This document shows, piece by piece, positions 1,085 through 14,259 of a stretch of DNA of 37,968 nt. A program made the translations under genes and the position numbers. The notes under the pieces were generated by a model. It was given only the letters and a program-made list of their open reading frames with translations, was not told the DNA's origin and made no database searches. How positions within the stretch are numbered: the stretch's first letter is position 1; each line of letters begins with the position of its first letter. The stretch is taken from positions 44,681 through 82,648 of the forward strand of contig KI547037.1 of NCBI GenBank assembly GCA_000497405.1. The letters run 5' to 3'. The stretch is from Streptomycetaceae bacterium MP113-05 (lineage in GTDB: Bacteria; Actinomycetota; Actinomycetes; Streptomycetales; Streptomycetaceae).

Positions 1085-2029
1085 ATGACACCCCCACCCC
1101 CACCCCCCACGTTCCGGCTGCCCCTGCGCGGCGGAGGCACCAGGCCGGACCCGGCACTCGACGACACCGAGCTGGCCGCGGCCCGCGACGGACTCGCTCA
1201 GGGTCGCTGGGGCGAGAGCCGTGCGTCCTCACCGCCACCGGCGACGACTGGGACCGGCGCGGCCACCGCCTCGTGGTCCTGGCCGCCGGCCCCGGCAGCC
1301 TCGCCTGGGCCCGCGAGTGGCAGCAGACCGAACCGGAGAGCGCCGATGCAGCCGTCCTCACGGCCTGCGCGGCCGTGAACGCCGCGGTCCGTGGCCGCGC
1401 ACGCCCCGAGACCGCTCACCAAGCCGTCCAGGACGCCGCCGCCCTCAGCCCCGCCGACCCCAGCCCCTGGCTGGCGGCGCTGCTGCTCGCCCGGCACACC
1501 GGCACCTCCGACGAGGCCCAGCGGGCGCCTTCCAGGAAGTGAGCGTCCGACACCGCGAACACCACCACGCCCATCACCTGATGGCCGCCGTCCTCGCTGA
1601 ATCCCCCGATACGCAGAGGCTCTACGACTTCGCCCACGAGTCCGCCTCCCGCGCCCCCGCCGACTCCCCACTCGCTCTTCTCCCGGTCGTCGCCCACGCC
1701 GAGGGGTTCCGCGCACACCGCGGCAACGCCCGTACGGCGGACCGCTCCGCCGGCGAGCACTGGACCGGACGGCACGCAGTCCACCTGGTGCGCAGCGCCT
1801 TCGACTGGTGGCTGGAATGGGGCGGCGAGGAGGGTCACCCGCGCCGCGCGGTGGACCTCAACTTCCTCGCCTACGCCAAGTTTCACGAGGGACGCCTCGC
1901 AGAGGCCGCGGCCCTCTTCCAACGGGTCGGTCCGCTCGTCACCCCGGCCCCCTGGTCCTACGCGGGCCGCGACGCCTCCAAGGCGTTCCGAGCCGCGCGC
2001 GCCACCGCTTACGGGTCCGCGTGCCCCCC
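1085..2029 (+). pseudogene. Conserved Streptomyces hypothetical protein, frameshifted twice
   Basis: One protein-like sequence is spread over three frames. The N-terminus (MTPPPPPPTFRLPLRGGGTR, from the ATG at 1085) is in frame 2. The sequence from about 1223 (VLTATGDDWDRRGHRLVVLA) is in frame 1. From about 1530 (FQEVSVRHREHHHAHHLM to KAFRAARATAYG) it is in frame 3. Each join needs one base: a missing base near 1222 and an extra base near 1532. It recalls a Streptomyces-restricted tetratricopeptide-like family of ~310 aa with an acidic/aromatic core (AFDWWLEWGG); this is from memory, not a search. The 3' end is approximate because no stop follows in the last frame. It could be a real pseudogene or two indel errors in a draft assembly. 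Function unknown. Confidence 0.6.
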
Positions 2030-2080
2030 ACCCATACCCACACGAGCCCGCCCCGGACCCCGGAGAGGAACCCAGCCGTC

Positions 2081-3615
2081 ATGCGCACCGGCAGCACGGA
2101 CGAGATCAGAACGTACAAGGGCCAGCATCGAGCCCTGCGCGCCGGGCGGATCGGTACCGTCGGGCTCCTGCTCTCCGTACTCGCGGCGACCGCACCGCTG
2201 ATGGTCGTGGCAGGGGTCATGCCGACCACGTACGCCGTCATGGGCATCACCGGTCAGCCGCTGCTCTTCGTGATCCTCGCCGTGGTGATGGCACTGTTCA
2301 GCGTGGGCTACGCCGAGATGAGCTGGCACGTCCACAACGCCGGTGCCTTCTACGCCTACATCGCCCGTGGCCTCGGCGGGTTCGCCGGCGCCGGCGCCTC
2401 CTACGTCGCCCTCGCCGCCTACAACGCCCTCCAGGTCGGCATCTACGGAATCTTCGGCTTCGAGGCGTCTCTGCTGCTTCACGAGTATCTCGGCTTCCAG
2501 GTCTCCTGGTGGGTGCCCGCTCTCCTCGCCGTGGCCGTCACCGGGGTGCTGGGGGCGCTGAAGATCGACCTCAACGCCCGGGTGCTGGGCGTGCTGCTGG
2601 TGATCGAGGTGCTGCTCGTCATCGTGGTCGACCTGGCCTTCGCCGCAGATCCCGGTCCGGCCGGCCTCTCGCTCGAGGCCTTCGACCCGGCGACGCTCAC
2701 CGGAGCCGGACTGGGCACCGCACTGTGCTTCACCGTCGCCGCGTTCCTCGGCTTCGAACAGGCCCCGTCTATACCGAGGAGACGAGCCGCCCGCAGACCG
2801 TGGTGGCCCGCGTGATGTTCCTCTCCGTCGGCTGCGTCGCCGTCTTCTTCGCCGCCACCTCCTGGCTGATGGGTGTCGCCACCGGCCCCGAGAACGTGGT
2901 GGCCTCCTCTCAGCAGCACGGCCCGCAGCTGCTGTTCGTGCTCAGCGACGCCCGCCTCGGAGGCACCTTCACCGACGCTCTGCACCTCTTCTTCGTCACC
3001 GGGATCTTCGCCTCGATGCTCGCCTTCCACAACGTCGTGGCGCGCTACGCCTTCGCCATGGGCCGTGAGGGACTGCTCCCGGCGCAGATCGGTCGCGCCT
3101 CCGCCTCGACGGGCGCACCCGCCTTCGGCTCGCTTCTCCAGACCGTCATCGCCTTCGTCGTGGTCGCTGGCTTCGCCGTCACCGACGACAGTCCGGTCGG
3201 CGATCCCACCACCCCGGTGCTGCGCCTGTTCACCTGGATGGGAAACCTGGGCGCACTCGGCGTCATCGCGCTCATGGCGCTCGCCTCTGTCGCCGTCATC
3301 GCCTTCTTCGTACGGCGCGGCGCGACTGGTGCACAGGGACCACGTCTGCTCTGCTCAGGGCTCGCCGCCCTCGGCCTCACGGTGATCTTCTGCTACGCGG
3401 TGGCCGACTTCGAGGTGCTCATCGGCAGCGGCGACGGCTCCGTGCTGCGCTGGGCGTTGCCCGGCGTCCTCGTTCTCGCGGGTGCCGCCGGCGTGGTCGC
3501 CGCACTGGTGCTGCGCACCCGGAGCCCGGAGACGTACGCCCGCATCGGCCTGGGCAACGAGGCGTTCCGTCTGGAGAACGCCGCCTCCGCGAAGACCGAG
3601 GGCCGGGACCGGTAG
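2081..3615 (+). pseudogene. APC-family amino-acid permease, single frameshift
   Basis: ATG at 2081 follows a GGAGAGGAA ribosome site (2062-2070). The sequence encodes a polytopic membrane protein with about twelve hydrophobic segments, from RIGTVGLLLSVLAATAPLMV to LPGVLVLAGAAGVVAALVLR, typical of amino acid-polyamine-organocation permeases (~510 aa). Frame 2 runs to about 2767 (FLGFEQAP) and frame 1 resumes with VYTEETSRPQTVVARV, the conserved loop after TM6. One missing base in a C-rich stretch (ggccccg, about 2761-2767) explains the break, and restoring it gives 511 aa. Either a recent null allele or a homopolymer error; the rest is well preserved. Probable substrate is an amino acid, not further defined. 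Confidence 0.8.
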
Positions 3616-3661: not shown

Positions 3662-4540
3662 TCAGTCCTCGACGAGGGCCGTGCGCAACCGCCGCAGGCA
3701 CCCCGACAGCAGCCGGGACACGTGCATCTGCGAGATGCCGAGCTGCCGGCCGATCTGCGACTGGGTGAGCTCCTCGCCGAACCGCATCTCCAGGATGCGC
3801 CGGTCGCGCGTCCCCAGCAGCGCCAGGTACGGCTTGAGTGCATGGAGCGACTCGACGGTCTCGAAGGCCGGGTCGCAGTCGCCCAACCGGTCCGCCAGAC
3901 TCGGACCCTCGCGGTCGTCGTCCCCGTCTTCACCGGTGCCGTCCAGGGAGTCCGCGGTGTAGCCGTTCGCCGCGACCTGTCCCTCCACGACCTCCTCGAC
4001 ACCGATGTCCAGGTGGTCGGCCAACTCCTGCGGCGTCGCGGCCCGGCCGAGCGAGGCGAGCAGCTCCTCACCGGCGACGGCCAGCCGGATCCGCAGCTCC
4101 TGGAGCGCCCGCGGCACATGAACGGCCCACGTCGTGTCGCGGAAGAAGCGCTTCATCTCACCGAGGATGTACGGCACGGCGAAGGAGGTGAACTCGACGC
4201 CCCGGTCCAGGTCGAACCGGTCGATGGCCTTGATCAGGCCGATCGTTCCGACCTGGACGATGTCCTCGTCCGGCTGGCCGCGGTGCCGGAACCGGGTGGA
4301 CGCGAACCGTACCAGCGACAGGTTCATCTCGATGAGGGTGTTCCGCGCGTACTGGTACTCGTGCGTGCCCTCCTCCAGGGTGCGCAGTCGCTCGAAGAAC
4401 AGTCGCGTCAGACGGCGGGCGTCCTTCGGCGCGACGGCGGTCGGCACGTCGAGCTGTGGCAGCTCGGCGGCACCGCCGTCCGACGTTCCCGCAGCCGCCC
4501 GGTGCGGCAGAACCGTGGACATCTCGGTCGCGGTGGTCAT
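3662..4540 (-). CDS. RNA polymerase sigma factor, SigB/SigF/SigG type
   Basis: 292-aa sigma-70 family protein. Region 2 carries ARNTLIEMNLSLVRFASTRF and EDIVQVGTIGLIKAIDRFD. Region 3 follows FTSFAVPYILGEMKRFFRDT. Region 4 ends with the helix-turn-helix LTQSQIGRQLGISQMHVSRL. Length and motifs fit the stress/sporulation SigB/SigF group, which is kept inactive by RsbW-type anti-sigma factors. The start at 4540 is set by AGGAGAGG seven bases upstream; the longer open frame has no ribosome site. It is the last gene of the minus-strand partner-switching cluster, 127 bp after the anti-sigma gene, and is the obvious output of the rsbR-to-phosphatase cascade. Streptomyces carry many paralogues, so the individual sigma name is not assigned. 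Confidence 0.93.
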   Translation of the reverse strand: MTTATEMSTVLPHRAAAGTSDGGAAELPQLDVPTAVAPKDARRLTRLFFERLRTLEEGTHEYQYARNTLIEMNLSLVRFASTRFRHRGQPDEDIVQVGTIGLIKAIDRFDLDRGVEFTSFAVPYILGEMKRFFRDTTWAVHVPRALQELRIRLAVAGEELLASLGRAATPQELADHLDIGVEEVVEGQVAANGYTADSLDGTGEDGDDDREGPSLADRLGDCDPAFETVESLHALKPYLALLGTRDRRILEMRFGEELTQSQIGRQLGISQMHVSRLLSGCLRRLRTALVED

Positions 4541-4667
4541 TGCGGGCCCTCTCCTCGGCAACTGTCGTCGTCGGCAACACGCGACAAGTGAGGAACTGCC
4601 CCGGAAAGCGCTGCCTACACGTCCCTGATTCCGCAGCGGCGCGAACACGCCGTTCCCGGGCGGGAAA

Positions 4668-5105
4668 TCACATCAGGGGGAGGTGTGCGGTGACGGACTT
4701 GCCGCCGCCGCTGTGCCGGGTGACCGTCACCCGGCTGGCGAGCCGGCAGGCCAGCGCCCACCCGTAGCCGCCGAGGGCGGGCGCACCCGTCAGGGACGGC
4801 TCGCAGCGGCGCGGCATCTCGTCACTGCCGTCCGCGATGGTGAGCACCAGGCAGTCGCGGTGGATCCGCGCTTGGAAAGCGGTGATGCCCTTGCCGTGCC
4901 GGATGGCGTTGGTGGCCAGTTCCGAGGTCACCAGCAGCGCGTCGGCGACCGTGACCGTCGCATCGGCGACGCGGCCCGCCGTGGTGCCCAGGTGCAGCTC
5001 CAGCAGGCGGGTGACGCGTTCCCGGGCCTCTGCCGCCGTGCACGGCGGCAGTATCGCCCGCTCCCGGGCCGGGCTCGGTGGCTGATCTTCTCTGAGCTGT
5101 TCCAT
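4668..5105 (-). CDS. RsbW-like anti-sigma factor, HATPase_c_2 serine kinase
   Basis: 145-aa GHKL-fold ATP-binding protein. The N-box is ELATNAIRHGKG (about residues 65-76), followed by IADGSDEMP and GGYGWALACRLAS as G1/G2-like elements. RsbW/SpoIIAB proteins bind their sigma factor and are displaced when an unphosphorylated STAS antagonist binds; they also phosphorylate that antagonist. No cognate single-domain RsbV antagonist is encoded next to it, so the partner is either elsewhere or the RsbS/RsbR-type STAS proteins upstream. It lies 127 bp before the sigma gene and 183 bp after the SpoIIE phosphatase gene, on the same strand. The family is clear; the pairing with this sigma is inferred from position. 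Confidence 0.85.
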   Translation of the reverse strand: MEQLREDQPPSPARERAILPPCTAAEARERVTRLLELHLGTTAGRVADATVTVADALLVTSELATNAIRHGKGITAFQARIHRDCLVLTIADGSDEMPRRCEPSLTGAPALGGYGWALACRLASRVTVTRHSGGGKSVTAHLPLM

Positions 5106-5288
5106 GGCTGCGTCTCGTCCCTACTCCGTCTGCCCGTCGCCTGCCCGCTCGACGGCGTGGCATGCGGCCGCGGCTGAGTCGGCGGGAAAAGACATGGCCC
5201 GCGGTGCCCGTGGCGATGAGGAGGCGCCGCACCCGAACTCCCCTCCGGAGGTGTCCGCCACGGGACGCCCCCGGACCGTACCGTGGCG

Positions 5289-6590
5289 TCAACCGCTTCT
5301 GCCCGACCGGCCGCAGCGGTGTGAGCCCGGCGCACCTGTCACCCGCCGGTACGCTCCGGCCCCGGCGGGCATCCGTATCACGAGCGCGAGGGTGTCGTCG
5401 CGGTGCAGCACCACACTGTGCATGTCGCGGGCGACGGCGCCCGGCACGTCGCCGATGGGCTCCCCCCGGTGCTCCCTCGCCGCGGCGACCAGCCGTGCCT
5501 CGCCCTCGACGGGGTCGCGGCGGCTCTCGGTGAGCCCGTCGGTGTACAGCACCGTCAGATCTCCGGGCGCGAGCCGGGTACTGAGCGTCCGTTCGCTTCC
5601 CGGAAGGGGGAAGCCGACGCCGCGGCCGCGCGCTTCCAGATACTCTGCGGTGCCGTCCCGCCGGACCAGCAGAGCAGGCGGATGGCTGCCGTTGGCCAGC
5701 GACAGTTCGCCGGTCGCCGGGTTCAGCCGGGCGAGGAGCACGGTGGCCATCACCTCGGCGTCCACCCCCGAGACGATCTGGCCCGTCCGCTCGACGAGAG
5801 TATCCAGCGGCTGCCCGTCCAGGGCGAGCGTCCGCACCGCGTGCGTGACGATGAGGGCCCCACGGGTACTGCGCACGCCATGCCCCAGCGCGTCGACCAC
5901 GGTGATGTGCACCGTCCCGTCCGGAAGGGTGAACCAGTCGTAGAGGTCGCCACCGGTCGGGGCGTGGGTGTCGGCCGGTGCGTAGTGCACGGACAGTTCC
6001 AGCCCGGGCACGTTCAACGGGGGTGGACGCAGCGCATCCTCGAGTTCCCGCAGGATGCGGCCGTGCGCGCCGCGCAGCTGCTCGTCCCGTTCCTCCAGCT
6101 CCACATACAGTGCGAGGACGCCGCTGTTGGTCTCGTCGAGTTCATGGGTGAGCCGACGGTGGTCGGCCGACAGCGAGTCCGCCCGGTCCAGGACGGCCCT
6201 CAACTCCTCCTCCGCCGCGTCTTCGTCGTCCAGCGGACCGCTGTGGACAGGCTGCTCCCCGGTGGGCGGCAGGGGCACGTGCCACACGGTGTGGCCGTCG
6301 CCCACCGGCTGGGCGGGCAGCGGCAGCTGTGGCAACGCAGCCGGTCGCGCGGCCGGTTGGGTGTGCAGGGTCACCGTGAGGGTGCCGGAACCGGTACGTC
6401 CGTGCGGACCGACGACCGCGGTGAGCCGGACACCGCGGCCCGCCTCCGTCTCGCGGCGGGCGATCAGCGTCACGGAGAGCACCAGCCGTGCGCGCTGCTC
6501 CACCGGCAGGCCGTGCTCGTGCGCCAGGCGGCGCACCGCCCGCCGCACGTCAGTCAGGTTCCTCAACAGGGCTGTGGCCAACGGGGTCAT
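5289..6590 (-). CDS. SpoIIE/RsbU-type PP2C phosphatase
   Basis: 433 aa. An N-terminal ~90-residue domain (LVLSVTLIARRETEAG) resembles a degenerate HATPase-like sensor. A heptad-like coiled-coil segment follows (SADHRRLTHELDETNSG to ALYVELEERDEQLRG, about 155-195). A C-terminal PP2C domain carries the metal-binding motifs GGDLYDWF, VVDALGHGV and TVLYTDGLTE, and the DDTLALV end motif. Such phosphatases dephosphorylate STAS anti-anti-sigma proteins and so free the sigma factor. The ATG at 6590 shares its A with the TGA of the upstream gene (GTGATG), and GGAAGG lies six bases before it; GTG at 6593 is an alternative. It is likely activated by RsbT-like proteins through the coiled coil, by analogy with RsbU. 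Confidence 0.87.
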   Translation of the reverse strand: MTPLATALLRNLTDVRRAVRRLAHEHGLPVEQRARLVLSVTLIARRETEAGRGVRLTAVVGPHGRTGSGTLTVTLHTQPAARPAALPQLPLPAQPVGDGHTVWHVPLPPTGEQPVHSGPLDDEDAAEEELRAVLDRADSLSADHRRLTHELDETNSGVLALYVELEERDEQLRGAHGRILRELEDALRPPPLNVPGLELSVHYAPADTHAPTGGDLYDWFTLPDGTVHITVVDALGHGVRSTRGALIVTHAVRTLALDGQPLDTLVERTGQIVSGVDAEVMATVLLARLNPATGELSLANGSHPPALLVRRDGTAEYLEARGRGVGFPLPGSERTLSTRLAPGDLTVLYTDGLTESRRDPVEGEARLVAAAREHRGEPIGDVPGAVARDMHSVVLHRDDTLALVIRMPAGAGAYRRVTGAPGSHRCGRSGRSG

Positions 6591-7594
6591 CACAGTCCTT
6601 CCATACTGAGTGCCGTTGCGTCGTCACGGTACTTGCGGTGACGGTGGGCGAGGGCCGCCGGCAGCAACTCGGGAGGCAGCCGCAGGAGGAACGGGCCGGG
6701 CGAGTGCGACCAGCGGGAGGCGATGCCGTCCGAATACAGCACCGCCACCTGCCCGGGCCGCAGCGGCACCGTGCGAACCTGCGGTGTGGGCAGGTTCCAG
6801 CCCACGACGCCCGGACGGCCGTCCAGCCGCCGGTGCTCGTCCTCCACGGAGAGCACGCACAGCCGCACGTTCCCGACGCCGCAGTACTCGGCGTGGCCCT
6901 CGCGCAGACGGAGCAGCCCCACTGCGGCGCCACGGGTGTGCCGCAGGCTCCGGTGCAGGTTGCGCACGATCTCCGGCAGGGCGTCGGCTGCCATTCCCTC
7001 GAAGGCGCGCAGTGCGGTCCGGGCGGCCCGTTCCGCCGGTGCCCCGTGCCCCAGCCCGTCGACCACCATGGCCGTCGGCGCCTCAGGGTCCCCCGTCACC
7101 GCGCAGCCGTCACCGCAGACGTCCTCCCCCTCGGCGGGGAGCCGGATCATCCCGGCCCGCGGTGCCGGCCGCACCGTGCCGGGAGGGGATATGCGTGCGG
7201 CGGCCACGGTGCCTTCGCCGGGCTGTGTGCGGACGACCAACTCGCCGGCGATCCGCTGGACGGCGCCCAGGCCGGTGCCCAGCGTCCCCGTCGTGGTGTA
7301 GCCGTCGGCGAGGCACCGCTGAAGATCCGCCATGCCGGGACCGCGGTCGGCGGCGAGGATCTCCAGGCCGGCGCCTCCGGGCGCCGGCTGCAGGTAGAGC
7401 ACGCCGTCCATGGCGTGCTTGCCCAGGTTGCTGGCCAGTTCGCTGGCGACCGCGCCGGCCCGGTCGGGCAGTGAGCCGGCCAGCCCGCACTGTACGGCCG
7501 TCTCCCGGGCCCGGGTCGCGGCCAGGTGCACGGCGCTGTAGTGATCGATGTGTACCTCGACCGTCGGGGGCGGCACCGGATCGGGGCCGCTCAC
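6590..7594 (-). CDS. RsbT-like ATPase fused to RsbX-like PP2C phosphatase
   Basis: 334-aa two-domain protein. Residues ~12-140 form a GHKL ATPase like RsbT: N-box ELASNLGKHA, then DRGPGMAD and GTLGTGLGAVQRIA. Residues ~150-330 form a short SpoIIE/RsbX phosphatase: VCGDGCAV, MVVDGLGHG, VAVLYSDGIASRW and the DDATAL end motif. In Bacillus, RsbT phosphorylates RsbS/RsbR and RsbX removes those phosphates; here both activities may sit on one chain. The GTG start at 7594 overlaps the rsbT stop (GTGA). This architecture recurs next to rsbRST in actinobacteria and is usually annotated ATP-binding SpoIIE family phosphatase. The opposing roles are inferred from domain homology. Confidence 0.85.
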   Translation of the reverse strand: MSGPDPVPPPTVEVHIDHYSAVHLAATRARETAVQCGLAGSLPDRAGAVASELASNLGKHAMDGVLYLQPAPGGAGLEILAADRGPGMADLQRCLADGYTTTGTLGTGLGAVQRIAGELVVRTQPGEGTVAAARISPPGTVRPAPRAGMIRLPAEGEDVCGDGCAVTGDPEAPTAMVVDGLGHGAPAERAARTALRAFEGMAADALPEIVRNLHRSLRHTRGAAVGLLRLREGHAEYCGVGNVRLCVLSVEDEHRRLDGRPGVVGWNLPTPQVRTVPLRPGQVAVLYSDGIASRWSHSPGPFLLRLPPELLPAALAHRHRKYRDDATALSMEGL

Positions 7595-8103
7595 CCGTCC
7601 GCCCAGCGCACGGCGGTCACCACCGTGCCGTCGCCCGGCGCCGTGCGCACCGCGAAGTCGTGCATCAGGCGCCGCGCCCCGCCCAGGCCGTGCCCCAGTC
7701 CCGCCCCGGTGGTGAACCCGTCGGTCAGTGCGCCGTCCAGGTCGGGGATGCCCGGCCCGTCGTCGCGCACGGTCAACCGCAGGCCGGCACCGCGGGCCTG
7801 ATGCAGCGCGTCCAGCGTCAGCGTTCCACCACCGCCGTGCACGTAGGCGTTCCGTGCCAGTTCGCTGGCGGCCGTCACCACGCGCGTCTGGTCCACCAGG
7901 CGGAACCCCAGAGCCTGCGTCGCCGAACGCACCGCGTGCCGGACCGTCAGCAGGTCCTCCTCGGTACGCACCGGGTACGACCCCGACGGGCCGTCGGGCG
8001 AGGCTCCCCCCGACCGCTGCCGCCCGATGCGGGACCTCTGCCCTCCCTGCCCGCTCCCCGTCCGCGAGCCCGGACTGTCGTGGGGATCGTGGGGGAAGGT
8101 CAC
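7591..8103 (-). CDS. rsbT: RsbT-like serine/threonine kinase of stressosome
   Basis: 170-aa protein with a C-terminal GHKL ATPase: N-box ASELARNAYVHGGGG, G1 RDDGPGIPD and G2 GLGHGLGGARRL. RsbT phosphorylates conserved Ser/Thr in the RsbS and RsbR STAS domains, is released from the stressosome, and then activates RsbU-like phosphatases. The first ~45 residues form a low-complexity Gly/Ser/Arg-rich extension that Bacillus RsbT (~133 aa) lacks. I chose GTG at 8103 because it overlaps the rsbS TGA as GTGA, like the other junctions in this operon. GTG at 8115 (+4 residues) and an internal GTG near 7970 (VRTEEDLL) are alternatives. Family assignment is strong; the start is uncertain. Confidence 0.82.
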   Translation of the reverse strand: MTFPHDPHDSPGSRTGSGQGGQRSRIGRQRSGGASPDGPSGSYPVRTEEDLLTVRHAVRSATQALGFRLVDQTRVVTAASELARNAYVHGGGGTLTLDALHQARGAGLRLTVRDDGPGIPDLDGALTDGFTTGAGLGHGLGGARRLMHDFAVRTAPGDGTVVTAVRWADG

Positions 8104-8558
8104 TCCGTCACCCACTCGGCGGTTCCGCGCCGAACCGCCCGCCGGGCGCCGCTCTGTCGGGTCTGCCGCCAGCCCAGCGCGGCCATGCCGTCCTCGGCGT
8201 TGAGCGCCGTCTCCACGCCGGTGAGTTCGATCCCGAGCTCCACCAGCGTGATGGCGACCGGAGGCCGCATGCCGGCCACGATCACTCGGGCGCCCAGCAG
8301 TTGCGCCATGGTGCTGAGCTCCATCAGCGCCCGCGCCACGAACGAGTCGATGATCTCGACGCGGGAGATGTCCAGCAGTACCCCCCGCGCGCGCTCGGTG
8401 ACGATGCGCGCCGTCAACTCCTCCGCCAGCGCCAGGGCGGTGGTGTCGTCGAGCTCGCTGAGCAGACCCGTGACCAGGGTGTCCCCGAGCCGGAGGATCG
8501 GCACCGTCGCTCCGCTGTCGGCATTCCGGTGCGCGTGGGCGGCGAGCGGCTCAGTCAC
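8100..8558 (-). CDS. rsbS: RsbS-like single-domain STAS protein
   Basis: 152 aa. A STAS domain spans about residues 18-115 (PILRLGDTLVTGLLSELDDT to LVELGIELTGVETALN), with the phosphorylation-site signature LLDISRVEIIDSFVAR, where the Ser after ID matches the RsbT target in RsbS. A basic ~35-residue tail follows (RQTRQSGARRAVRRGTAEW), beyond the usual ~120-aa RsbS. The GTG start overlaps the end of rsbR by eight bases, and its stop overlaps rsbT by four, so translation is probably coupled. With RsbR it would form the stressosome core that holds RsbT. Confidence 0.88.
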   Translation of the reverse strand: MTEPLAAHAHRNADSGATVPILRLGDTLVTGLLSELDDTTALALAEELTARIVTERARGVLLDISRVEIIDSFVARALMELSTMAQLLGARVIVAGMRPPVAITLVELGIELTGVETALNAEDGMAALGWRQTRQSGARRAVRRGTAEWVTE

Positions 8559-9426
8559 GGGCCGACCCGCGGGAGGAGGCAGCCTGCCCGGTGAGCTCGA
8601 TGGCCGATTCGAGCGCGTCGGCGAGGGTGGCGCGCGTGAGGATGTCCGAGAGGTCGATACCCAGCTGCACGATGGTCTGGGCGATGCTGGGCCGGATGCC
8701 GCTGATGACGCAGTCCGCGCCCATCATCCGCACCGCCTGCACCGTCTGCATCAGGTGCTGGGCGACGGAGGTGTCGACAGTGGGCACACCGGTGATGTCG
8801 ACGATGGCCACGGTCGCCTCGTACTGCTGGATGGCCTCCAGCAGGTTCTCCATCACGACCTGGCTGCGCGCGGTGTCCAGGTTGCCGATGAGCGGCACCG
8901 CCAGTACTTTCCGCCACAGCTGAACCACGGGGGTCGACAGCTCCAGGAGCTGACGGCTCTGCCGGCGGATGATCTCCTCCCGCCCCTCCACGAAGGTCTC
9001 GAAGGACAGTGCACCTGCGGCGTCCATCAGGCGGTTGAGCATCCGGGCGGCGGCGAACATCTCCTCGCCGGCCATCGACTCCTGCCGCGTGGCCTCCAGC
9101 AGCGCCTCCTTCAGCTGGAGGACCGCCAGCGCGGTCACCGTAGGAGAGACGCCGCCCCGGGCGCGGCGCAGCGAGAGGTCCTTCACCACGTGCCGCAGCT
9201 CCGCGTGTTCGGCCACCACGCGTTCCGCGGGAAGCCCGCAGGCGAGGGCCGAACCCAGGGTGGACACCAGGGCCTCCGCCTCCTCACGCAGTTCGGCTTC
9301 GATCAGGCCTTCCCGCAAGCCGGCCCGCTCCTCCTGCAACTGCACCCAGCGGTCGGCGATCTCGGAGCTGCGCTGCGACAGCACCTCCGTCAGGCGGTCT
9401 CGCACCGCGGACTCCGTGACACTCAT
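8551..9426 (-). CDS. rsbR: RsbR-like stressosome scaffold/sensor
   Basis: 291 aa. The N-terminal helical domain (about 10-150; SQRSSEIADRWVQLQEERAG to MLNRLMDAAGALSFETF) looks like the RsbRD_N type rather than the globin of Bacillus RsbRA. The C-terminal STAS domain (about 165-275) contains VDITGVPTVDTSVAQHLMQT and SGIRPSIAQTIVQLGI, the two regions that carry RsbT-phosphorylated Thr in RsbR. It has no membrane helix, so it senses in the cytoplasm. The ATG at 9426 follows GGGAGGG; the upstream in-frame extension lacks a ribosome site. First gene of the five-gene overlapping operon. Confidence 0.88.
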   Translation of the reverse strand: MSVTESAVRDRLTEVLSQRSSEIADRWVQLQEERAGLREGLIEAELREEAEALVSTLGSALACGLPAERVVAEHAELRHVVKDLSLRRARGGVSPTVTALAVLQLKEALLEATRQESMAGEEMFAAARMLNRLMDAAGALSFETFVEGREEIIRRQSRQLLELSTPVVQLWRKVLAVPLIGNLDTARSQVVMENLLEAIQQYEATVAIVDITGVPTVDTSVAQHLMQTVQAVRMMGADCVISGIRPSIAQTIVQLGIDLSDILTRATLADALESAIELTGQAASSRGSARD

Positions 9427-9514: not shown

Positions 9515-10441
9515 TCACGGTGTTCGGGCGGCGAGGTGCTGGAGCAGGAGGCCTTCCCGCACCGCCCAGGGGCAGAGGACGACCTTGCTGAGCCCCATCT
9601 GTTTCAGAGCCGTGTGCGCCACCACGGCACCGGCCAGCGACTGTCGGCTGCGCGGGCCACTGATGCCCGGCAGCTTCGCCCGGTCGGCGGCAGGCAGACC
9701 GGCCAGTGTCCTCACTGCCTTCCGCAGGCCGGGGCGGGTCAACTCGCGCGTGACGTGGGCGCCCTCCCTCGCGGGCGGCGCTCCGCACATCCGGCCGAGC
9801 TGCTGGAAGGTGCGGGAGGTGGCGACCGCCGTGACCGGTTCCTCGGCCCGGACGCGGGCGGAGATCTCCCGCAACTGCTCCTCCGCCCGGCTGCGTACGG
9901 CCTTCACCGCACGCTTCGGAGGCGGGTCGGAGTGGCCGAAATAGCGCCGGGTGAGCCTGCCGGCACCCAGCGGCACCGAGGCGGCGAAGTCCGGCGCCTT
10001 GCTGCGGCCGAAGGCGATCTCCAACGAGCCGCCCCCGATATCCAGGACGACCATCGGGCCGGCGCGCCAGCCCATCCATGCCCGAGCGGCCCGAAAGGTC
10101 AGCCCTGCCTCCACCTCCCCGGACATCACCCGCAACGCCAGCCCGGTCTCCGCGAGGACCGTGTCCAGTGCCTCGGCGCGGTTCGGCGCGTCCCGGATGA
10201 CGGCCGTGGCGAACGCGTCCAGTTCTGTCACGTCCCAGCTCTCCGCCTCCTTGCAGGCGGCGGCCACCGCGTCGGACAGGAGGGTGATCGCGCGGGCGGG
10301 TAGCCGTCCGTCGGGTTCGACGAGCTCAGCCAGGCGAAGACGTTGCTTGGCCGTGTGTACCGGTGTGGGCACGGCCCCGTCGAGATCCGCGACCTCCAAT
10401 CGCACGGTGTTCGATCCTGCGTCCAGTACACCCACTCGCAT
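9515..10441 (-). CDS. Ppx/GppA-family exopolyphosphatase
   Basis: 308-aa protein of the ASKHA Ppx/GppA family. The phosphate-1 loop is at the N-terminus (MRVGVLDAGSNTVRLEV), ATAVIRDAPN lies mid-protein, and VLDIGGGSLEIAFG is the phosphate-2 loop. Single-domain actinobacterial members (~300-320 aa) hydrolyse polyphosphate or (p)ppGpp-type substrates. The start at 10441 fits the conserved family N-terminus; the frame is open further upstream but that part is low-complexity, and no good ribosome site is visible. It lies 88 bp before rsbR on the same strand, so read-through into the stressosome operon is possible. Polyphosphate or alarmone turnover would suit the stress context, but that link is inference. 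Confidence 0.85.
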   Translation of the reverse strand: MRVGVLDAGSNTVRLEVADLDGAVPTPVHTAKQRLRLAELVEPDGRLPARAITLLSDAVAAACKEAESWDVTELDAFATAVIRDAPNRAEALDTVLAETGLALRVMSGEVEAGLTFRAARAWMGWRAGPMVVLDIGGGSLEIAFGRSKAPDFAASVPLGAGRLTRRYFGHSDPPPKRAVKAVRSRAEEQLREISARVRAEEPVTAVATSRTFQQLGRMCGAPPAREGAHVTRELTRPGLRKAVRTLAGLPAADRAKLPGISGPRSRQSLAGAVVAHTALKQMGLSKVVLCPWAVREGLLLQHLAARTP

Positions 10442-10744
10442 GCGCTTGTGAGTACCCGTGCCCGGGGAGGACACCCGTCGCCATCCGGGTGCACTCTCCC
10501 GCGCGACGGGTGGGCCAGGCGGCGAACGCGGGTCCCACGACGGCGCGTCGGCCCGAGGAGAGGAGCCGTGTCCGGACACACGTCGGCGTTGCGCCGTGGT
10601 CGGCCGTGACACCCGTTAGGTGTCAGGTGGCCTGGCCGGCGGCCGCAACGAGCTGTTCGGGGGCGGTCGTTCGGGATCGTCGAGGGGCCCGTGTGCGGGA
10701 GCGGGGGACGAAACGGTCCTCGCCAGGAGGGCGCGAGGCGGGCA
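10442..10744. other. Intergenic region with one short inverted repeat
   Basis: 303 bases between the methyltransferase stop and the Ppx start, both on the minus strand. Apart from the perfect inverted repeat at 10607-10625 I see no convincing gene, promoter or RNA. The open frames crossing it have poor start contexts. Confidence 0.5.
10607..10625. repeat. Perfect 7-bp inverted repeat
   Basis: TGACACC, a five-base spacer CGTTA, then GGTGTCA. It lies about 120 bp past the methyltransferase stop and 166 bp upstream of the Ppx start. It could be an operator for the Ppx gene or a weak terminator for the methyltransferase. There is no T-run, and the stem is shorter than the strong terminators elsewhere in this window. 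Confidence 0.4.
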
Positions 10745-11804: not shown

Positions 11805-12665
11805 ATGACCGGTCCAGTGCTCGTCGGGGTGGACGGTTCGGAGCAGAGCATCGTCGCCGTCGAGTCCGCCGCCCGTGAGGCACGTCTGCGGGGCGTACCC
11901 CTGCGGGTGGTGCACGCCTTCCGCCCGCCCGCCCTCCAGCCGCCGCTCGCCGATCCCCAGGCCGCTCGGAACACCGCAGAGCGGGTCACACAGGACGCGG
12001 CGCAGTGTGCGCGTGTGGTGGAACCCGGCATCGAGGTCTTCGCCAGCGTGGTGTCCGGGGACGTGCTGCCCGTACTCGAGGGCGAGTCCCGCCACGCGGC
12101 GGTCGTCGTGGTCGGAAACCGGGGGCACAACGCCTTCAGCGGACTGCTGGCGGGGTCCACAGGAGTGGAGCTGGCCGCTCACGCGCTCGGCCCGGTCATG
12201 GTGGTCCGCGACCGCTGGCTCCCCCAGGGGCGCGTGGCCCTCGGAGTGGACGGTTCGCCGGCGGGGGAGGCGGCGGCGGACTTCGCCTTTGCCGAGGCGT
12301 CCCTGCGGCGCGTCGGTCTCCTGGCCGTGCACGCCTGGACGCCGTGGAACGTCGAGCCGCCGCACCCTTCCGATCCGTCCGAGCCGTACGCCGCCGCCCC
12401 CGGTGCCCTGGCGGCGCAGGAGGAGCGGCTGCTCGCGGAGTCCCTGACGGGACACTGCCAGCGCTACCCGGACGTCGCCGTCGAGCGTCGGCCGGTGCGG
12501 GGCGAAACCCGGGAAGCGCTGATCGAAGCGAGCAGGGACGCCCAGATGGTCGTGGTGGGCAGCCGCGGGCGAGGCGGCTTCAAGGGGTTGATGCTCGGGT
12601 CCGTGAGCCAGGCACTCCTCCACCACGCCCACTGCACCGTCGCCGTCGTCCCTGCCGGAAGGTGA
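11805..12665 (+). CDS. Universal stress protein, tandem UspA domains
   Basis: 286 aa with two UspA domains. Domain 1 (about 4-135) opens with VLVGVDGSEQS and has the ATP-loop VVVGNRGHNAFSGLLAGS. Domain 2 (about 145-285) opens VALGVDGSP and has VVVGSRGRGGFKGLMLGS, ending CTVAVVPAG. Both domains keep the G-2x-G-9x-G-S/T motif for ATP binding, as in Rv2623 of the mycobacterial DosR regulon. The ribosome site AAGGAGAGC precedes the ATG. It converges on the CBS-BON gene with 14 bp between stops. One of four such proteins in this window; cytoplasmic. Confidence 0.92.
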   Translation: MTGPVLVGVDGSEQSIVAVESAAREARLRGVPLRVVHAFRPPALQPPLADPQAARNTAERVTQDAAQCARVVEPGIEVFASVVSGDVLPVLEGESRHAAVVVVGNRGHNAFSGLLAGSTGVELAAHALGPVMVVRDRWLPQGRVALGVDGSPAGEAAADFAFAEASLRRVGLLAVHAWTPWNVEPPHPSDPSEPYAAAPGALAAQEERLLAESLTGHCQRYPDVAVERRPVRGETREALIEASRDAQMVVVGSRGRGGFKGLMLGSVSQALLHHAHCTVAVVPAGR

Positions 12666-12679
12666 GCGAGTGCGCCGCA

Positions 12680-13366
12680 TTACCGTCCCAGCGGTGACCG
12701 CCGGGACATGGCGCCGGTGTCGTCCGTCCGGAACGTCAGGTTCTCCTGCACGCTGACGACGCCGTCCACCGACCGGCACAGCCGGACCAGGACCGGGATC
12801 AGACTCCGGGCCTCCACCCGGCCGAGCAGCTCCACCCGCCCGCCCCGGACGTCCGCCGTCACCTCGGACGGGGCCAGACCGAGGGTGTCACGCAGTACTT
12901 CCCGGTGGATCTCGTCGCGGATCGCGTCGTCCCGTCGCAGGAACACCCGCAGCAGGTCGCCGCGGCTCACGACGCCGACGAGCCGGTCCGCCCCGTCCAC
13001 GACGGGCAGCCGTTTCACTCCGTGTGCCTCCATCAGCTGGGCGGCCTCCACCACCGTCCATTCGGGCCGGACACACACGGGGGGAGCGGTCATCAGCTCC
13101 TCCGCCCGCGCTCCCTCTGCCTTGGCCCGCTCCCAGTCCTCCAAGGCCGGTAGCGGCACCAGTCCCGTGAGTCCCGGCTCATTGCTCGCCTTGCGCAGCA
13201 GGTCCGCCTCGGAAACGACGCCGACCGGACGACTGTCCGCGTCGACCACGGGCACGGCCGTCACGTCGTGGTCGGCCAGAGTCCGGACGACCTCCTTGAA
13301 CGGGGTCGCTCGCCGAGCAACCACGACGTCGCGGGTCATCAGGTCACTCACGGTGCGGTGCTGCAT
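12680..13366 (-). CDS. CBS-pair and BON domain protein
   Basis: 228 aa. CBS domain 1 (about 7-60: VSDLMTRDVVVARRATPFKE to [10 protein letters not shown]), CBS domain 2 (about 93-147: LMTAPPVCVRPEWTVVEAAQ to LVGVVSRGDLL), then a BON domain (about 158-215: VRGGRVELLGRVEARSLIPV to VDGVVSVQENLTF). CBS pairs bind adenylyl ligands such as AMP or ATP; BON domains bind phospholipids or stabilise assemblies. Mycobacterial DosR-regulon Hrp1 (Rv2626c) is a CBS-only relative. ATG at 13366 follows GGGAGG. It lies 23 bp after the universal stress protein gene on the same strand, likely one transcript. Paralogue of the gene at 19803-20561. Confidence 0.9.
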   Translation of the reverse strand: MQHRTVSDLMTRDVVVARRATPFKEVVRTLADHDVTAVPVVDADSRPVGVVSEADLLRKASNEPGLTGLVPLPALEDWERAKAEGARAEELMTAPPVCVRPEWTVVEAAQLMEAHGVKRLPVVDGADRLVGVVSRGDLLRVFLRRDDAIRDEIHREVLRDTLGLAPSEVTADVRGGRVELLGRVEARSLIPVLVRLCRSVDGVVSVQENLTFRTDDTGAMSRRSPLGR

Positions 13367-13389
13367 GGTGCTGCCTCCCGGTGTGGGTG

Positions 13390-14259
13390 TCAGTCGTGCG
13401 GGACGACGGCCACGGGAGCCGCGGCATGGTGCAGCACGGCGTGGGTGACCGGTCCGAGCGGGGTGCCGGATGCGAGGTGCTTGTGCCGCCGTCGTCCGAC
13501 GACGACCAGGGATGCTTCCGCAGCCGCCTGCAGCAGGCGCGGTGCGACCGCGCCTGCCGTGGTGAGGCGCTCGGCCTTCACGTCCGGGTAGGCCGCAAGC
13601 CACGGCGCCAGAGCGTTCTCAAGGGCACGGGCCGCCCGTGCCTCCAGGTCGGTGCCCACACGCGGGTCGGGCAGCGCGGAAGGGTAGGCGTAGATTCCCT
13701 GCAGGCTCCACACGCTGACGGCTACCAGCGGCCGGAGCGTCCGATCCGCCTCGGCGAAGGCGAACTCCGCGACCGGGGCGGTCCGGTGCTCCACGTCGAG
13801 TCCGACCACCACCGGATCGTCCCCGGCCGGCGCCGGGGCGTCACCTGCGCGCACGAGCACTACGGGACCGCTCGCGCGGGCCACCACGGGCAGCATGACA
13901 CTCCCGGTCAGAAAACCCGACATGCGTCCCGTGCCCCGGGATCCCAGCACCAGCAGCTGGGCCTCGCGGAGGGTGTCGAGCAACGCCTTCGCCGGGGTCT
14001 CCGACGTCTCCTCCCCGGTGACCGTCAGGTCCGGATGACGGCGTGCAGCATCCTGCCATGCGGTACTCAGCCGCTCGTGAGCCCATTCCTCCTGAGCGGT
14101 GAGGCCGATCGTGAACTGCTGGTTCCCCGCGCGCCACGGTCGCGCGTACACGATCCGCAGCGCCGCGCCGCGCCGTGCCGCTGCCGCGGCGGCCCCGTGC
14201 AGAGCCGCGATGCTCGGGTCGGAGCCGTCCACGCCGACGGCCACTGGCTTGTGCGTCAT
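13390..14259 (-). CDS. Universal stress protein, tandem UspA domains
   Basis: 289 aa. Domain 1 (AVGVDGSDPSIAALHGAAA) ends with LVLGSRGTGRMSGFLTGSV, a complete ATP-binding motif. Domain 2 ends with VVVGRRRHKHLASGTPLGPV, where the first glycines are replaced (GRRRHK), so its nucleotide binding may be lost. The ATG is at 14259, next to a 325-bp divergent intergenic region shared with the cNMP-fold gene at 14585. It is cotranscribed with the downstream CBS-BON gene (23-bp gap). Typical of DosR/OsdR-type regulons. Confidence 0.9.
   Translation of the reverse strand: MTHKPVAVGVDGSDPSIAALHGAAAAAARRGAALRIVYARPWRAGNQQFTIGLTAQEEWAHERLSTAWQDAARRHPDLTVTGEETSETPAKALLDTLREAQLLVLGSRGTGRMSGFLTGSVMLPVVARASGPVVLVRAGDAPAPAGDDPVVVGLDVEHRTAPVAEFAFAEADRTLRPLVAVSVWSLQGIYAYPSALPDPRVGTDLEARAARALENALAPWLAAYPDVKAERLTTAGAVAPRLLQAAAEASLVVVGRRRHKHLASGTPLGPVTHAVLHHAAAPVAVVPHD

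Follow-up and report, generated by a model that had tools for sequence, protein, structure and literature searches.

The window, that is, the whole stretch of 37,968 nucleotides from Streptomycetaceae bacterium MP113-05 that was analysed here (G000:C1:44681-82648, part of a 5.96 Mb genome), contains seven genes on the minus strand, in the order rsbR, rsbS, rsbT, rsbTX, rsbU-like, rsbW-like and, last, the gene of a sigma factor, as identified from the list of open reading frames (ORFs) and from Pfam and NCBIfam matches. They are best read, with a probability of roughly 60%, as one circuit in which a stressosome core signals via an output phosphatase to an RsbV-type antagonist encoded elsewhere, and from there to RsbW and the sigma factor. 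The cluster as a whole is probably a stressosome module of the actinobacterial kind, coupled to a sigma factor system that works by partner switching. A first-pass annotation of this DNA had reported the same gene order on one strand, which is borne out, and had called the cluster a complete cascade wired to a sigma factor. The word “complete” is too strong, as one step is absent locally and the RsbW and sigma genes are a plug-in separable from the five-gene core. As to the wiring, a link to the SigB-type sigma factor is likely; between the five-gene operon and the rsbW-like and sigma genes there is no tight coupling.

According to this model, RsbR and RsbS would build the sensing core and hold RsbT. 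Upon stress, RsbT would phosphorylate conserved threonine and serine residues of RsbR and RsbS, leave the core and activate the phosphatase encoded by the fifth gene (gene 5), and RsbTX would dephosphorylate RsbR and RsbS and thereby reset the core. The active gene 5 phosphatase would dephosphorylate an RsbV-type STAS antagonist, which in turn would remove RsbW from the sigma factor. Some relatives have retained an rsbV between rsbU and rsbW; as this genome lacks it, the antagonist is probably encoded elsewhere, presumably as one of the four stand-alone STAS proteins of the genome (the BldG-like C2:443928, C1:366152, C13:75264 or C9:287). We infer all binding and phosphorylation steps, the identity of the antagonist and the control of this sigma factor by RsbW.

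The first gene, rsbR (8551..9426, minus strand, as for all seven genes), encodes a stressosome co-antagonist with an RsbRD_N-type sensor (PF14361, 49.9 bits) and a STAS domain (PF01740, 58.7 bits). Its best match in the PDB is the RsbR-type stressosome protein 7o0i (126 bits); the ORF opens at GTG 9492 and the likely start is ATG 9426. RsbS (8100..8558), the RsbT antagonist, is a single STAS domain (PF01740, 44.9 bits) that matches the RsbS structure 6qcm at 102 bits, with Ser72 aligned to Ser56 of 6qcm. It is followed by the switch kinase RsbT (7591..8115), which has a GHKL fold (HATPase_c 46.8 bits, HATPase_c_2 41.4 bits), and by rsbTX (6590..7594), in which an RsbT-like GHKL domain (approximately residues 10-140) is fused to an RsbX-type feedback phosphatase (approximately residues 148-330). 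This RsbT-RsbX fusion, proposed in the first-pass annotation, is confirmed by a SpoIIE match (PF07228, 43.5 bits) and an N-terminal HATPase match below the cut-offs (20-22 bits); the phosphatase half matches the SpoIIE-type structure 3zt9 (64 bits) and RsbX 3w40 (44 bits). When its own genome was searched with RsbTX, one further match at E<=1e-10 was found, within rsbT. Gene 5 (5289..6593) encodes the RsbU-like output phosphatase (PF07228, 111.8 bits), with a PPM phosphatase domain at residues 199-407. Adjacent genes overlap by 8 bp (rsbR/rsbS), 16 bp (rsbS/rsbT), 4 bp (rsbT/rsbTX) and 4 bp (rsbTX/rsbU). GTG 8103 is the likelier start of rsbT and reduces the second overlap to 4 bp, so that the overlaps of 1-8 bp first described for these five genes are right for the likely starts (8, 4, 4 and 4 bp).

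RsbR, RsbS and RsbT are encoded in one operon, and phosphorylatable residues are present in RsbR (Thr/Thr) and RsbS (Ser). By alignment positions counted by hand, T207 and T241 of RsbR and S72 of RsbS are the counterparts of T175 and T209 (278-residue chains) and of S56 in the solved proteins, residues that we take to be phosphosites. Among the relatives, the position of Thr207 is Thr in 69 and Ser in 16 of 85 sequences, that of Thr241 is Thr in 85/85, and that of Ser72 is Ser in 87/87. The ATP-binding N-box and G-box residues of RsbT are kept in 84-86 of 86 sequences and those of the RsbTX GHKL domain in 87-88 of 88. Metal-binding Asp residues are present in the RsbX-like PPM domain of RsbTX (kept in 86-88 of 88) and the metal sites of the RsbU-type PPM domain of gene 5 are likewise intact (Asp in 79/79). 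These counts include the window sequence, omit rows below a length or score limit and contain, for each protein, three or four rows that are exact copies, since some genomes entered the set by two routes.

Relatives were gathered by scanning named genomes with the RsbTX family, and the best 80 of 285 relatives comprise 64 from Streptomyces, 12 from Amycolatopsis, one from Nonomuraea and three proteobacterial records. These named relatives suggest that the window, too, comes from a Streptomyces. The order R-S-T-TX-U was found in 73 of the 80 and recurs too widely to be due to chance. The remaining seven either combine R-S-T-TX with another output (L147, L151, L152, L153) or end at a contig edge (L077, L145, L149). 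The module is not universal, as a search of 61 genomes with RsbTX gave any match at E<=1e-10 in only 28. A second module type exists in the genus, in which R-S-T-TX is followed by a histidine kinase and then a phosphatase (9/9 regions; 13 of 150 genomes matched).

Downstream of gene 5, the rsbW-like gene (4668..5105) encodes a putative anti-sigma factor and serine kinase that exceeds the HATPase_c_2 cut-off (32.3 vs. 27.4 bits), falls far under that of RsbA_anti_sig (34.6 vs. 210 bits) and weakly matches the RsbW structure 6m36 in sequence (E 0.45). The adjoining gene (3662..4540) encodes a SigB/SigF/SigG-type sigma factor (TIGR02980, 272.5 bits vs. a cut-off of 234.35); its likely start is ATG 4540, preceded by GAGGAGAGGG, and a start at GTG 4648, where the ORF opens, would add 36 residues. 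As in RsbW/SpoIIAB systems, a gene for a GHKL-domain protein neighbors this SigB-type sigma gene.

A link of such sigma factors to stressosome cores is suggested by their frequency nearby. In 1.195 Mb of flanking sequence from the 64 Streptomyces loci, 14 SigB-type sigma genes (phmmer >150 bits to the window sigma) were found in 13 loci, compared to about 1.2 expected from the 89 over-cut-off TIGR02980 matches counted by hand in 11 Streptomyces genomes (approximately 90.8 Mb). This roughly 12-fold excess, which is spread over several unlike arrangements and clades, is approximate because the two measures of SigB type differ, the 11 genomes were chosen because they carry the module, and counts from related loci depend on one another. 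In a tree, the linked sigma factors fall into separate clades (L058/L112/L079/L083/L088/L094/L114/L129; L056/L093/L107/L108; L066/L067/L125/L126, this third clade also enclosing one unlinked row), and the tree rejects them as one orthologous group. The linkage of sigma and core seems, from this tree, to have arisen several times. Repeated linkage favors a functional link in general, without being proof for the pair in the window.

The sister of the window sigma in the tree is a paralogue from its own genome (C11:35835; 70% identity, support 100/99), and the window RsbW might control both. No RsbW-like or STAS gene was detected within approximately 6 kb of this paralogue (G000:C11:35835-36671, L188).

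The absence of an rsbV from the cluster, noted at first pass, is borne out by a search of the genome for STAS and STAS_2 domains. No third STAS gene exists in the window, since only RsbR and RsbS among the genome's matches fall within it, and the cluster does not form a complete rsbRSTUVW-sigB operon. The genome-wide search for RsbV paralogues that had been called for returned the four stand-alone STAS proteins named above, all outside the window. Two further STAS-type matches, in a 556-residue frame (C11:25918) and, below the cut-off, in an 838-residue frame (C2:458831), were not counted as free antagonists. A profile of RsbW-linked RsbVs gave no close match in this genome, the four STAS proteins scoring 28-34 bits only. 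By hand count, 42 HATPase_c_2 matches exceed the cut-off, RsbT and RsbW included and probably other kinases too; with four free STAS proteins to 42 such matches, shared antagonists are likely. As the genome is approximately 98% complete and in 75 contigs, an unseen rsbV is also possible.

Some relatives encode an antagonist at the module itself. In L114, L129, L132 and L134, rsbU and rsbW flank a STAS gene of the same strand; in three of these loci (L114, L132, L134) it shares 4 bp with rsbU, and in L114 and L129 this set of rsbU, STAS gene and rsbW is followed by a convergent SigB-type sigma gene. Of the 64 Streptomyces loci, 13 have a separate RsbV-like STAS gene at most 5 kb from the core; in other module types a STAS gene either precedes rsbR (L068, L071, L272) or closes the operon (L267, L268). 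A search with RsbW matched 192 of 295 genomes, from which the 20 best after the window itself were taken. Twelve of these 20 closest homologues are preceded, 0.4-0.6 kb upstream on the same strand, by a STAS gene (weakly in L224). A set of STAS, RsbW and STAS genes, accompanied by one more STAS gene in divergent orientation and by a phosphatase-like gene, was also found to recur within the genus (L216, L219, L221, L223, L225, L226, L227, L230), with no sigma gene detected nearby.

Antagonists encoded apart from their anti-sigma factor are reported for S. coelicolor. According to the available excerpts, BldG is phosphorylated by several RsbW homologues (PMC8346170), SCO7325 is the RsbV of SigB and is encoded away from it (PMC8346170, PMC11472566), and both act on anti-sigma factors encoded elsewhere (PMC8346170). 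In L068 and L071, the STAS gene lies upstream of R-S-T-TX-U, an arrangement that would suit SCO7325 as a separate RsbV. The first-pass annotation had offered two explanations for the missing RsbV, an antagonist encoded elsewhere or a shorter circuit; the former is better supported by the four free STAS proteins, the rsbV near this position in relatives and the precedent of BldG and SCO7325. Loss of the local rsbV and use of a distant or shared antagonist is the likeliest explanation.

Several observations weigh against the proposed circuit. On the side of the sigma factor, rsbW is set apart from rsbU by 183 bp and the likely sigma ATG from rsbW by 127 bp, and the examined flank is free of SigB-type sigma genes in 51 of the 64 Streptomyces loci. 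The window sigma falls outside the clades of all other module-linked sigmas, so its position could be accidental. Among the 20 closest homologues of RsbW, only three have a sigma gene within approximately 1.5 kb. Searches for a SigB-type promoter singled out no site: a GGGTAY-type pattern matches the window at chance level and nowhere ahead of rsbW or sigma, and with the promoter consensus taken from excerpts of PMC8346170, 435, 400 and 155 of 500 shuffles were as good ahead of rsbR, rsbW and sigma, respectively. On the side of the antagonist, no separate STAS gene was found within 5 kb of the core in 51 of 64 loci, and in L058/L112, L079, L083, L088 and L094 rsbW follows rsbU after 42-69 bp, which leaves no room for rsbV, with a convergent sigma gene next. 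As such clusters persist, those without rsbV may work without a local antagonist.

The two gaps, the 51 loci without a SigB-type sigma and the position of the window sigma in the tree would fit a chance neighborhood, in which the five-gene operon has another target and the RsbW-sigma pair downstream works independently of it. Such a pair also occurs without a module nearby in L254, where an RsbW homologue adjoins a sigma gene in the order seen in the window. By coordinates, this order is also present in G026, G020 and G013, and its recurrence counts in favor of the preferred circuit. Among the 19 best sigma matches outside the own genome, four (L242, L246, L250, L252) have a HATPase gene within approximately 1.5 kb; the L254 region, a twentieth, was chosen because its RsbW match adjoined a sigma gene. 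A chance neighborhood is nevertheless unlikely, in view of the excess of SigB-type sigma genes around cores in unlike arrangements and of the shared strand and order in the window.

The second explanation offered at first pass, a short circuit in which RsbS or RsbR take the part of RsbV and antagonize the RsbW-like protein themselves, agrees with the absence of rsbV from the window and with the recurring clusters that lack it. SCO7325 would set a precedent for it if it were the RsbS of its own module. We consider it distinctly improbable: RsbS resembles structural RsbS proteins, a separate RsbV-like gene adjoins the module in some relatives, this class of RsbW often has its own upstream RsbV (12/20), and a SpoIIE-type output phosphatase would be left without its usual class of substrate. 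With the RsbVs of relatives, the four free STAS proteins and the distant antagonists reported in S. coelicolor, a short circuit is also unnecessary.

The gap between rsbU and rsbW (5106..5288, minus strand, 183 bp), which is the site of rsbV in four relatives, contains one frame that weakly resembles an RsbV C-terminus. Against a model of all 50 gathered STAS proteins it scores 5.5 bits, a value reached by 0 of 2000 shuffles and 45 of 17,626 non-STAS segments; against a model of 11 RsbW-linked RsbVs it scores 4.0 bits (3/2000 shuffles and 172/17,626 segments as good), and against a model of the four RsbVs from the U-W position -2.5 bits (1111/2000 shuffles as good). The resemblance, spotted by eye before it was scored, is a hint of a C-terminal rsbV remnant. 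A broken circuit, in which rsbV was recently lost, the RsbW-sigma arm was uncoupled and the core serves another target, would find support in the first of these scores, but it is the least probable alternative given the selection by eye, the lower scores of the two RsbV models, the open rsbW and sigma frames and the maintenance of rsbV-less clusters in other species.

In the preferred circuit RsbT would act on gene 5, whose N-terminus is unlike that of RsbU. The first-pass designation as an RsbU-like phosphatase holds for the SpoIIE/PPM domain, but gene 5 does not have the RsbT-binding RsbU_N domain: Pfam found none at E<=0.01, and in 43 N-terminal domains of this type none was found at E<=1, seven of them giving a weak HATPase_c_2 match. 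Instead, the protein is predicted to consist of a degenerate RsbT-type GHKL domain (approximately residues 1-110), a 66-residue helix (123-188) and the PPM domain (199-407). An AlphaFold2 model built from 60 sequences shows these three parts with a mean predicted local distance difference test (pLDDT) score of 87, and the structure nearest to its PPM domain is the RsbU of Rv1364c.

The N-terminus modeled alone (43 sequences, pLDDT 83) was compared with known structures and profiles. The first 13 Foldseek rows are all RsbW, SpoIIAB and UsfX chains (best E 3e-3, none <1e-3; probability 0.92-1.00). VIA-align 2 ranks UsfX (Z 11.6, root-mean-square deviation 2.4, 103 aligned) and RsbW (Z 11.5, 2.5, 99) ahead of SpoIIAB (Z 10.2-10.5), with SiaB next at 7.8. 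By hhalign, the nearest profile is RsbT, with a score of 41.6 at probability 88.5 (200 column shuffles reached 22.2 at most), compared to 29.0 for HATPases of the own genome, 10.8 for the reversed profile and 9-10 for STAS. The RsbTX profile gave no significant match (score 20.8, probability 1.7), so that the gene 5 N-terminus is related to the RsbTX half via RsbT only. The position of the Mg-binding Asn is Asn in 0/79 sequences (two gapped) and the base position is Glu in 18/79. By the model and alignments, this domain is predicted to have a degenerate fold of the RsbT/RsbW type and lacks the Asn that binds Mg.

Module-linked histidine kinases carry a similar domain. Their N-termini (11 sequences) match RsbT with a score of 47.2 (probability 93, where 100 shuffles reached 23.3 at most), the gene 5 domain with 34.1 (probability 72; shuffles 18.2) and HATPases in general with 21.9 only, and in the Aquabacterium locus L151 a full-length HATPase_c_2 match takes the place of this output N-terminal domain. 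In the stressosome modules L267 and L268, the output histidine kinase has such an RsbT-like N-terminus, and the next genes encode a phosphatase and a STAS protein.

The window operon encodes three RsbT-type domains, namely RsbT itself, the first half of RsbTX and, by its predicted fold, the N-terminus of gene 5, which suggests docking by GHKL pairing or by shared seats. GHKL anti-sigma kinases form dimers. Tentatively, RsbT may signal via copies of itself. Released RsbT could pair with the pseudo-RsbT of gene 5, which would order the long helix and activate the phosphatase. Alternatively, the fused domains of RsbTX and gene 5 could occupy the seats of RsbT on the stressosome, which would bring the feedback and output phosphatases to the complex. 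If so, the presence of a like domain on the histidine kinases of other modules would make it an exchangeable stressosome receptor distinct from RsbU_N. A degenerate RsbT-type receptor would be a concrete answer to the question of how RsbT recognizes targets without RsbU_N, as in Streptomyces, Amycolatopsis and stressosome-linked histidine kinases. Excerpts of PMC9237108, on the Vibrio stressosome, report that RsbU_N is confined to a subset of outputs and that in Vibrio no interaction of RsbT with an output was detected. No description of an RsbT-RsbX fusion or of an RsbT-like or GHKL domain on stressosome outputs was found in excerpts of the open-access literature, and such descriptions may be in print.

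The components and their order are those of the B. subtilis rsbRSTUVW-sigB-rsbX operon save for RsbV, and the RsbR Thr, RsbS Ser, RsbT and PPM residues are kept. In contrast to that operon, RsbX forms a fusion with an RsbT-like domain and has its place between RsbT and RsbU, gene 5 has a degenerate GHKL domain instead of RsbU_N, RsbV is lacking and the RsbW-sigma pair is set apart. The extended operon is, in the excerpts of PMC9237108, seemingly restricted to Bacillales; the present loci would add stressosome cores that were joined repeatedly to SigB-type sigma factors outside this order, with RsbV as a separable part. Minimal rsbRSTX modules, as excerpted for Vibrio vulnificus and others, likewise place an RSTX core ahead of an output, PP2C-type phosphatases being among the outputs (PMC9237108; cited for histidine-kinase outputs by PMC12143880). 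Some of those outputs have RsbU_N-like domains, whereas in the window the output begins with a predicted degenerate fold of the RsbT type, and RsbX is joined to an RsbT-like domain. Mycobacterium marinum, by the excerpted account, also has actinobacterial stressosome genes (rsbR/S/T/X) thought to act on RsbW/SigF, but possesses rsbUW, a fusion by its name, and rsbV (PMC8115616). Within Streptomyces, RsbR-headed genes are described for the five-gene SCO7324 operon of S. coelicolor and for san7324/san7324L of S. ansochromogenes, likened here by description only; for the latter, the available text mentions RsbS, RsbT or sigma genes in the flanks (PMC7244524, PMC8465540). BldG and SCO7325 of S. 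coelicolor remain the closest likeness for the antagonist.

Beyond the sigma gene, an amino-acid permease-like sequence (approximately 1808-3615, plus strand) extends over two frames (ORFs 1808-2815 and 2509-3615), neither of which has a Pfam match; it was named by eye and may be frameshifted. Upstream of the operon, a Ppx/GppA-type phosphatase gene (9515-10612, minus strand like rsbR) stops 88 bp short of the likely start of rsbR, and two universal stress proteins (Usp) and a CBS-BON protein are encoded further upstream (11805-12665, plus; 12680-13603, minus; 13390-14259, minus). The Ppx/GppA, methyltransferase, Usp and CBS genes were not counted as parts of the system, as this neighborhood is not conserved: a Ppx/GppA gene and a methyltransferase gene lie upstream of rsbR in none of the 100 other module loci (L054-L153), and in the same set Usp genes occur near one (L095) and a CBS protein near one (L078).

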